A stretch of 64,000 nt of DNA from Mesorhizobium sp. B2-7-2 (GTDB taxonomy: Bacteria; Pseudomonadota; Alphaproteobacteria; Rhizobiales; Rhizobiaceae), in NCBI RefSeq assembly GCF_006440775.1, contig NZ_VFTZ01000002.1, positions 186,001 to 250,000 of the forward strand. The letters run 5' to 3'. Below the pieces are notes generated by a model. That model saw only the letters and a list, made by a program, of their open reading frames with translations. It searched no databases and had not been told where the DNA came from. Position numbers and translations under genes: made by a program. Below, piece by piece: positions 11,770 through 13,487 of this stretch (positions within the stretch are counted from its first letter, which is position 1; each line of letters begins with the position of its first letter).

Positions 11770-13440
11770 ATGAAGACGGCTTCACAACAGCAGCAGTCTA
11801 CAAAGGGATCGCGGGCAGTCCTCTACCTTCGCGTATCCACGGCCCGCCAGGCCGAGCACGATGTCTCCATTCCCGACCAGAGGCGCCAAGGTGAGGCTTA
11901 CTGCGTCTCTCGTGGCTATGAGCTGGTCAATACCTTTGTCGAGGCAGGCGCATCGGCCACCAATGACAAGCGTCCAGAGTTCCAGCGCATGATCGAGGAA
12001 GGCACATCAAAGCCTTCCCCCTTCGATGTCGTGGTCGTTCATTCCTTCAGCCGATTCTTCCGCGATCACTTCGAGCTTGAGTTCCATGTCAGGCGGCTCG
12101 CCAAGAACGGCGTAAGACTTGTGTCGATTACCCAGGAGATGGGTGACGATCCAATGCATGTCATGATGCGCCAGATCATGGCTCTCTTCGATGAGTACCA
12201 GTCGAAAGAGAACGCCAAGCATGTGCTCCGCGCCATGAACGAGAATGCCAGGCAGGGCTTCTGGAATGGGGCGTTGCCTCCGATCGGCTACCGGATCGTT
12301 GCGGCAGAGCAGCGCGGATCGAAGACCAAGAAGAAGCTGGAGGTCGATCCGCTGCACGCCGACACCGTCCGATTGATCTACCGCCTCTTTCTTCAGGGCA
12401 ATGGAATCTCAGGACCAATGGGCGTCAAATCGATCGCCTGCCATCTGAATGAGACCCGGTTGTTCACACGAGACGGCGGTCTCTGGGGACTGGCGCAAAT
12501 CCACGCCGTCCTAACCCGAACCACCTATATCGGCGAACACCGCTTCAATACGCGCAGCTTCAAGGGCAGGGCAAAGAAGCCGGACGACGAGGTTGTCGTC
12601 ATGGCGGTGCCGGCAATCATCGAGCGCAAGACCTTCGATGCGGTGCAGGCGCGTCTCAAATCTCGCCATCCAATGGTGACGCCACCCAGGGTCACCACCA
12701 GTCCCGTTCTCCTTACCGGTATCTGCTTTTGCGCAAAGTGCGGAGGAGCCATGACGCTCAGGACCGGCAAAGGCTGCACTGGCACTATGTATCGTTACTA
12801 CACCTGCTCGACACGCGCCCGCCAGGGCAAGGCCGGTTGCCAGGGCAAATCGATCCCCATGGCCTTTCTGGACGACCTGGTTGCCAATCATCTGGAGAAG
12901 CGGCTTCTCAAGCCAGAACGGCTCACCACCATTCTTGAGGCTGTCCTGGGCCGGAGGCAGGAACGCACTGAGCGCCGCCGCGAGCACCTGGGCGAACTGA
13001 AGCGGAAGATCACCGAGACCGACCAGCGCCTCAATCGGCTCTATGACGCCATTGAGGCTGGCGTCATAGACATCAACGATCCTGCTCTCAAGGATCGCAT
13101 GGCGGGTCTCAAAGCCATCAAGGAACAAGCCACGACAGATGCCGAGCGCATCGAGGCTTCGCTCGACAGCACCGGCGACCAGCCCATTACTTCCGAAATG
13201 GTCACCACATTCGCCCGCGCCGCTCGCGAGCGCATGCACGATCCGCGTGGCGGCTACCGCCGCGATCACCTGCGAGCGTTGGCGCAGCGGATCGAAGTGG
13301 CCGAGAAGGAAGTCAGAATCATCGGATCAAAGTCCGAATTGCTCCAAACCCTGGTCGCGGCATCAGGCGAAGAAACGGCGGTGGCGGGAGTTCGCAGTTC
13401 TGTACTGAAGTGGCGCACCCGACAGGATTCGAACCTGTGA
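11770..13440 (+). CDS. Large serine recombinase (resolvase/integrase family)
   Basis: 556 residues from the ATG at 11770, with GGGAG about nine bases upstream; a GTG at 11764 is too close to that site. Resolvase catalytic domain at about 14-160 with the nucleophile in LYLRVST (Ser23) and the R-rich motifs SFSRFFRD; Recombinase domain at about 170-290; zinc ribbon with CFCAKCGG and, 40 residues on, [12 protein letters not shown]; then a coiled coil (about 395-440) typical of large serine integrases. It catalyses site-specific integration or excision. The last 10 codons (RTRQDSNL and stop) lie inside the 3' part of tRNA-Arg, so the C-terminus would change if the element moved. This placement suggests that the tRNA 3' end is the attachment site. 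Confidence 0.9.
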
Positions 13441-13487
13441 CCTCTGCCTTCGGAGGGCAGCGCTCTATCCAGCTGAGCTACGGGTGC
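13411..13487 (-). tRNA. tRNA-Arg (anticodon CCG)
   Basis: 77 bases including encoded CCA. The cloverleaf is complete: seven-pair acceptor GCACCCG/CGGGTGC, D stem GCTC/GAGC, anticodon stem CTGCC/GGCAG with loop CTCCGAA (anticodon CCG at 13451-13453), T stem ACAGG/CCTGT with TTCGAAT. The 3' 30 bases overlap the end of the serine recombinase gene. tRNA genes are common insertion sites; the accessory-looking DNA lies on its 3' side. Confidence 0.97.

Follow-up and report, generated by a model that had tools for sequence, protein, structure and literature searches.

A serine recombinase gene that ends inside a tRNA gene

The 64,000-nucleotide stretch of Mesorhizobium sp. B2-7-2 analyzed here (contig NZ_VFTZ01000002.1, positions 186,001 to 250,000, referred to as the window) carries the gene of a large serine recombinase that reads into the gene of tRNA-Arg(CCG) on the opposite strand. 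A reading made earlier from the sequence alone had placed the recombinase stop codon inside the tRNA gene, with 30 bases in common, and this is confirmed by the open reading frame (ORF) and by the ARAGORN prediction, which share positions 13411–13440. The recombinase matches the families Resolvase (PF00239), Recombinase (PF07508) and Zn_ribbon_recom (PF13408), all above the Pfam cut-off. The features of the junction, including the attachment (att) site, are given below in window coordinates.

11770–13440, plus strand: large serine recombinase gene (ATG at 11770, frame open from GTG 11764), with its TGA stop (13438–13440) inside the tRNA gene
13387–13410, plus strand: recombinase-side att arm within the gene, coding for GVRSSVLK and kept beside the Trp codon across the family
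13411–13413, plus strand: TGG, the last element-derived Trp codon and complement of the CCA end of the tRNA
13411–13419, plus strand: 9-bp direct repeat TGGCGCACC, attR copy (attL copy at G000:C12:174725)
13411–13487, minus strand: tRNA-Arg(CCG), intact (ARAGORN)
13414–13440, plus strand: the tRNA gene in antisense reading, giving the tail RTRQDSNL and the stop (ORF and translation)
13415–13416, plus strand: GC, where exchange most likely takes place, as deduced from two other insertions; in this element bounded only to 13411–13419
1–13416, plus strand: right-hand 13.4 kb of a 24.7-kb integrated element whose attL lies outside the window

Comparison with related loci indicates that this gene very probably belongs to a family of large serine recombinases with the attP site in the 3' part of their own gene, in which integration at the 3' end of a tRNA gene swaps the native C-terminal tail for one read antisense from the tRNA.

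Ends of the element and its empty site

The left end, which the sequence-only reading had reported as not seen, was located at G000:C12:174725, that is, at window coordinate -11275, where a left-end profile scored 66.7 (the next best score in 120 kb was 2.0); the integrated element measures 24,696 bp. Its GC content is 58.2% in the part inside the window versus 64.8% in the 20 kb to the right. The sister genome G058 presents the empty site and matches both flanks of the occupied one: 5,038 bp of the left flank align at 94.8% and end with the 9-bp repeat TGGCGCACC, and the right flank is collinear at 90.7%. No match to the 24,696-bp element was found in the 20 kb around this empty site, and a single element gene searched as DNA in G058 gave no match in a search run without a positive control. 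A relative that keeps the recombinase without the upstream genes would have spoken against the earlier reading, and the best match to the window recombinase in G058 is only 27% identical over part of the protein.

The sequence-only reading had further supposed a flanking repeat of the 30 shared bases. A direct repeat does exist, but it is the 9 bp of TGGCGCACC; a 30-base second copy was found neither in the window, where a 32-mer of the tRNA 3' end with up to 3 mismatches gave no second copy, nor in the genome, where a 20-mer of this end with up to 2 mismatches gave two other matches only, both with 2 mismatches and on other contigs. The att core lies at the tRNA 3' end as proposed, but comprises a few bp at the CCA/acceptor end and not 30 bp, so that to take the lack of a 30-bp repeat as a refutation would mislead. 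A 3-kb element starting at window 10412–10425, near which the window and three relatives have a common boundary, was also considered; it was rejected, as this boundary has no far-end arm and the true left end lies 21.7 kb further left.

The recombinase family at tRNA genes

The recombinase protein was searched in 101 genomes (its own and relatives) and in 146 genomes of the genus, and further in genome contigs (the best 80 of 354 relatives), plasmids (18 records) and phages (25 records). After five repeats of the same place had been dropped, 111 oriented loci with a located recombinase end remained. TGG stands at the aligned Trp codon in 104 of these 111 loci, the other seven being broken, cut or misaligned (among them L077, which ends in tRNA-Arg(ACG)), and in 79 of the 104 an opposite-strand tRNA has its 3' CCA exactly at the TGG; because of these two counts, the overlap of recombinase and tRNA is far from chance. 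The targets of the 79 loci are tRNA-Arg(CCG) (29), Arg(ACG) (15), Ser(CGA) (8), Ser(GGA) (8), Asn(GTT) (6), Ser(TGA) (6), Arg(TCT) (3), Glu(CTC) (2), Ser(GCT) (1) and Glu(TTC) (1). The remaining 25 were inspected by eye: 15 show a 3' part of a tRNA (three of these at a contig end), L179, L203 and L204 have no tRNA, L175 is at a contig end, L113 carries an uninterrupted attP, and L074, L109, L110, L173 and L205 are partial or decayed. The genome G057 has the cut-off 3' part of the tRNA and, 24 kb further on in the same contig, the intact tRNA; it looks as though the older element had been displaced when another one later entered at the tRNA.

Among the genomes of the genus, the T arm in the 3' half of tRNA-Arg(CCG) has two versions, GACAGG..CCTG and GACAAG..CTTG, whose differences compensate each other; incoming elements may have replaced it.

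The exchange point

A second set of attB, attL and attR sites was obtained from Sinorhizobium meliloti (S. meliloti), where ml66 and SM11 have the empty site and ml21 carries a 38.6-kb element. The left flank matches the empty site up to TGGCGC and the tRNA side matches it from TGGCGC on; in the left copy, 16 of the 18 bp from TGG match the tRNA, the two differences lying from position 7. The attP and attB sites hence share a short core only, TGGCGC in S. meliloti and 9 bp for the window element. The predicted S. meliloti attP contains a 14-bp inverted repeat with one arm inside the recombinase gene, and the inner arm of the window occupies the place of this arm.

A third insertion comes from a related integrative and conjugative element (ICE) in an Enterobacter plasmid, which is inserted outside any tRNA, in the transposase gene istA of IS1326, with pieces of this gene on both sides; the junction is present in six plasmid records. 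At position 4 the left junction has the target base and the right junction the element base, and positions 5–9 are common to both. The S. meliloti set bounds the exchange to positions 1–6 and the plasmid insertion to positions 5–9, so that exchange at positions 5–6 (GC) is most likely if both enzymes cut alike. The element would therefore supply TGG plus the complement of the discriminator base and so repair the tRNA. Left ends with TGGT whose recombinase side has TGGC (B, refound as L291) fit an exchange at these two positions.

Nearly identical enzymes with different tails

In the 1,400 bp that precede the Trp codon, the loci L106, L126 and L127 are 99.93–100% identical, and they are inserted at three different tRNAs with three different tails: Arg(ACG) with RARRDSNS, Arg(TCT) with RARQDSNLRPQA and Arg(CCG) with RTHQDSNLRPLPSEGNALSS. 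Eight copies of another ICE (L153, L154, L160, L161, L165, L166, L167, L204) are 99.857–100% identical over 1,400 bp and have seven different tails. Integrated copies thus have many unrelated tails, which range from a few to more than 30 residues. Comparison of genomes shows that the att site lies inside the gene, that the tail is exchanged at integration and that near-identical enzymes use different tRNAs; one enzyme body is thus shown inserted at several tRNA species. Together with the G058 and S. meliloti comparisons, the differing tails on near-identical genes bear out the earlier suggestion that the tRNA 3' end is the att site and that integration changes the recombinase C-terminus.

The recombinase gene of L153, L154, L160, L161, L165, L166 and L204 is identical over 1.4 kb across genera, the records with this ICE being from Mesorhizobium, Allorhizobium, Paracoccus, Erythrobacter, Kaistia, Devosia and the Enterobacter plasmid, which suggests very recent transfer across classes.

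A probable native tail at the far end

At its left end the element keeps an alternative, probably native tail, which lay beyond what the sequence-only reading could see. The left-end profile, built from seven ends, found an end in each of the four long Arg-type stretches outside its seed set (B, G000, G202, G203) and gave no comparable match in the long stretches of the tRNA-Asn-type genomes G117 and G048. Two scans based on the inverted repeat of the inner arm were set aside: with the exact arm, no convincing left end was obtained, and the combined scan found the S. meliloti end and three tRNA-Asn ends and none of the window type.

A total of 50 left ends or attP junctions were collected, some of them the same place found twice. 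An initial TGG together with Tyr at codon 11 of the attP frame is seen in 47 of the 50 (38 distinct ends) and not in ml21, S. medicae and L305. For the Arg/Ser far ends the consensus is W-R-[AT]-x-x-x-[DE]-D-[DE]-[NH]-Y-x-Y-[AS]-I-A-L, so that the conserved peptide ends with NY-x-YAIAL. For 33 of the 47 ends the frame is closed by a stop codon at most two codons beyond the aligned Leu, the tRNA-Asn type and some others running on. A pattern shaped on this peptide gave 21 matches in 17 of 397 genomes of the order, with TGG at the right place in 20 of the 21, and the reversed pattern gave none. For the window element, the circular form is predicted from the far end to terminate in KW-RTAPSDDENYVYAIALL. 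An Arg-type gene joined directly to the tail was found in L301, in a genome that has no other recombinase match at E 1e-30, and among 15 related loci in IMG/VR, several of them cut or broken, no attP form with a native tail was found. The far-end sequence is probably the native tail; that it is a real coding tail under constraint is supported but not proved.

The genome G460 shows four places with the same tail sequence (L295, L304, L306, L307) and two recombinase matches, as would be expected from orphan tails or from the presence of several elements.

In the tRNA-Asn group the tail is longer, at 99–103 aa, and carries a domain, an AbiEi-type winged helix. In the integrated copies of G048, G055 and G178 a tail of 99–102 residues counting the Trp is encoded in the attP frame by an ORF that lies 26 to 49 kb away from the recombinase, and the G048 tail, the integrated tail run against Pfam, matches the AbiEi_4 winged helix (E 3e-7). 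The ratio of non-synonymous to synonymous substitution rates (dN/dS) in frame is 0.41 for G048–G178, 0.14 for G048–L113 and 0.17 for G178–L113, the L113 pairs having near-saturated synonymous sites, versus 1.10–2.16 in the other frames (two pairs). In L113 the recombinase and the tail form one intact ORF of 651 aa that matches all four families including AbiEi_4.

Proposed mechanism and its alternatives

In the circular form the recombinase gene would read through the TGG (Trp) codon into the native tail, and the complete enzyme would recombine the attP inside its gene with the 3' end of a tRNA gene. CCA and the discriminator base come from the element, which restores the tRNA; the recombinase gene leaves its native tail at the far end and gains one that is read antisense from the tRNA. 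The two forms of the enzyme, complete in the circle and tail-swapped in the chromosome, may then differ in activity, with the native tail favoring integration or serving a regulated excision step. On this basis it can be proposed, tentatively and at slightly under even odds, that integration acts as a molecular switch in which only the circle makes the complete enzyme with its native tail (in one group a winged-helix DNA-binding domain), and amputation and replacement of the tail change the direction or regulation of the reaction while the tRNA is repaired. Such a switch would be a simple, testable candidate mechanism by which a serine integrase might distinguish excision from integration, and the exchange of tails explains the strong C-terminal variation of these recombinases.

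Several points weigh against this picture. The exchange in the window element itself is bounded only to 9 bp. The profile located a left end in 15 of 116 oriented stretches, three of them seeds, the left flank being 10 kb or shorter in most stretches; the score of the S. medicae end is no higher than noise, and G117, also of the tRNA-Asn type, gave no left end with the profile or the combined scans. The only attP junction of the Arg/Ser type found, L301, is a decayed gene, and the sole intact attP gene, L113, belongs to the tRNA-Asn type, on a contig of 180 kb. The NY-x-YAIAL motif is missing from the tails of S. meliloti and S. medicae, and the far-end arm presumably also binds the enzyme.

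One alternative, rather unlikely overall but possible for the Arg/Ser type, is that the overlap is due only to an attP arm lying at the gene end, the far-end arm being a DNA binding site, its tail functionless and any C-terminus tolerated. The many unrelated tails of integrated copies are in keeping with it, as is the far-end arm of S. meliloti, which forms a clean inverted repeat of the inner arm, as expected of a binding site, and whose peptide lacks the NY-x-YAIAL motif. Differences among far ends are, however, more often synonymous in the attP frame than in the others: in a set of 24 distinct ends that were obtained without the codon pattern, the synonymous fraction amounts to 0.343 in the attP frame versus 0.154 and 0.110 in the other frames. 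Column permutation reached 0.343 in 49 of 5000 trials for all 24 ends (0.01), and the 21 Arg/Ser ends alone gave 117 of 5000 (0.023); the result is modest and takes no account of relatedness, which limits the case for a constrained tail. A first version of this test included ends picked by the codon-shaped pattern and was rejected, because such a pattern favors third-position changes; it was redone without those rows. The tRNA-Asn far end also argues against a functionless arm, since it encodes a domain-bearing tail with dN/dS below 1 in frame that is fused to the recombinase in L113.

The winged-helix ORF of the tRNA-Asn group might instead be a gene of its own, expressed from an internal start when integrated and joined to the recombinase incidentally in the circle, which is judged improbable. 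In-frame TTG, GTG and ATG codons are present in the tail at codons 40, 62 and 80, which would allow the winged helix to be produced as a protein by itself, and the winged helix is better conserved than the segment before it, which is unconstrained between G048 and G178 (proportions of non-synonymous and synonymous differences, pN 0.097 and pS 0.105); both facts count against a tail that functions as part of the recombinase. The same segment is nevertheless constrained with respect to L113 (pN 0.31–0.35, pS 0.74), where both parts are one 651-aa ORF, and a separate gene would leave the short Arg/Ser tails unexplained. At tRNA genes the usual agent is a tyrosine integrase, and relatives have later insertions at this tRNA (e.g., G057). 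An ordinary tRNA-targeted island that has a long identity block and is mobilized by such an integrase, with the serine recombinase as a bystander, is nevertheless highly implausible, as the far end lacks the tRNA 3' half and the repeat is just 9 bp, the recombinase gene lies at the tRNA junction throughout the family, and the insertion in the transposase gene has the same structure without any tRNA.

In S. medicae WSM419 pSMED01 (L285:45903-48455) a 2.5-kb insert lies beside tRNA-Arg, with XRE-like and HipA-like ORFs recognized by eye, and just the end of the recombinase gene remains.

Comparison with known systems

The family resembles the large serine integrases in its domain order (Resolvase, Recombinase, zinc ribbon) and in its short attP/attB core. 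The closest likeness by description is DsiB, a serine recombinase specific for ssrA in islands of Dehalococcoides. Like the window recombinase, it has a 3' end that overlaps the att site at an RNA gene, in DsiB invariably; its stop codon lies in ssrA or in the next island, and its authors noted the divergent C-terminal part and suggested that full function may be limited to the circularized element (McMurdie et al. 2011, PMC3146451, available text). DsiB is associated with transfer-messenger RNA, one genus, a small partner (DsiA) and an ssrA direct repeat, and neither a native tail nor an exchange point is defined in the same text (PMC3146451), whereas the window family, compared with DsiB by description, uses several tRNA species and a core of a few bp and has a conserved far-end tail. 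The window insertion itself is at tRNA-Arg and not at ssrA, and no DsiA-like second serine recombinase is adjacent in the window ORF list, the two weak matches elsewhere in the genome being on other contigs.

In archaea, the suicidal tyrosine integrases of SSV1, pTN3 and pT26-2 have the att site in the integrase gene, and integration splits this gene and carries its end to the far side, a self-disruption called exclusively archaeal in the available part of a review (PMC8371274). The att site inside the gene and the change of the gene by integration are common to both; unlike the archaeal tyrosine enzymes, which according to that text are split into two inactive parts (PMC8371274), the bacterial serine recombinase keeps its three Pfam domains and loses the tail alone. 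The window family, so far mostly seen in alphaproteobacterial genomes, looks like a bacterial serine-recombinase counterpart, with the archaeal suicidal integrases as its tyrosine analogue.

In the system of mycobacteriophage BPs it is the repressor gene that is altered, by a tyrosine integrase, whereas the window family alters the recombinase itself. The likeness lies in an attachment site placed so that integration alters a phage gene product, and integration-dependent immunity is described for BPs and its relatives (PMC4557955, available text). Some of the serine-recombinase integrative and mobilizable elements (IMEs) and the ICE of Mesorhizobium (PMC8627217) may belong to the window family, to which they are likened by description; an overlap of gene and tRNA is not described for them in the available text of that paper, and the corresponding portions of PMC11476347 and PMC12884075 contain nothing on a recombinase/tRNA overlap. 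No other account of this recombinase family was recognized in the literature covered, from which most subscription journals fall outside, and priority is not claimed.

Other genes of the element

The remaining features of the element inside the window are as follows.

663–10200, plus strand: cargo with patatin-like proteins, acetoacetate decarboxylase and short-chain dehydrogenase (Pfam)
4191–8374, plus strand: two ORFs resembling a resistance-nodulation-division (RND) efflux pair (by eye from translations)
10489–10761, minus strand: XRE-type helix-turn-helix regulator (PF01381), part of a conserved 3-kb integration module
10813–11388, plus strand: 191-aa ORF of the integration module, no Pfam match
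11473–11748, plus strand: 91-aa ORF of the integration module, no Pfam match

The 3-kb integration module is about 96% identical in G057, G059 and G028. Over the whole element, Pfam matches comprise DUF2130, a porin, a TIR protein, an AAA protein, an IS110-type transposase, patatins, acetoacetate decarboxylase and a dehydrogenase; no relaxase was found among the element ORFs run against Pfam, some ORFs not having been run. In the part left of the window the TIR-domain protein lies beside an AAA_16 ATPase (L335:5614-8895, minus strand), a possible defense pair. Directly after the stop of the far-end tail there is, by eye, an apparent tRNA-Ser 3' end in plus orientation (L335:782-806, that is, G000:C12:174782-174806). 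A second island, partly common to G058, occupies G000:C12:159265-174725, between the ancestral neighbor gene of the tRNA and attL.
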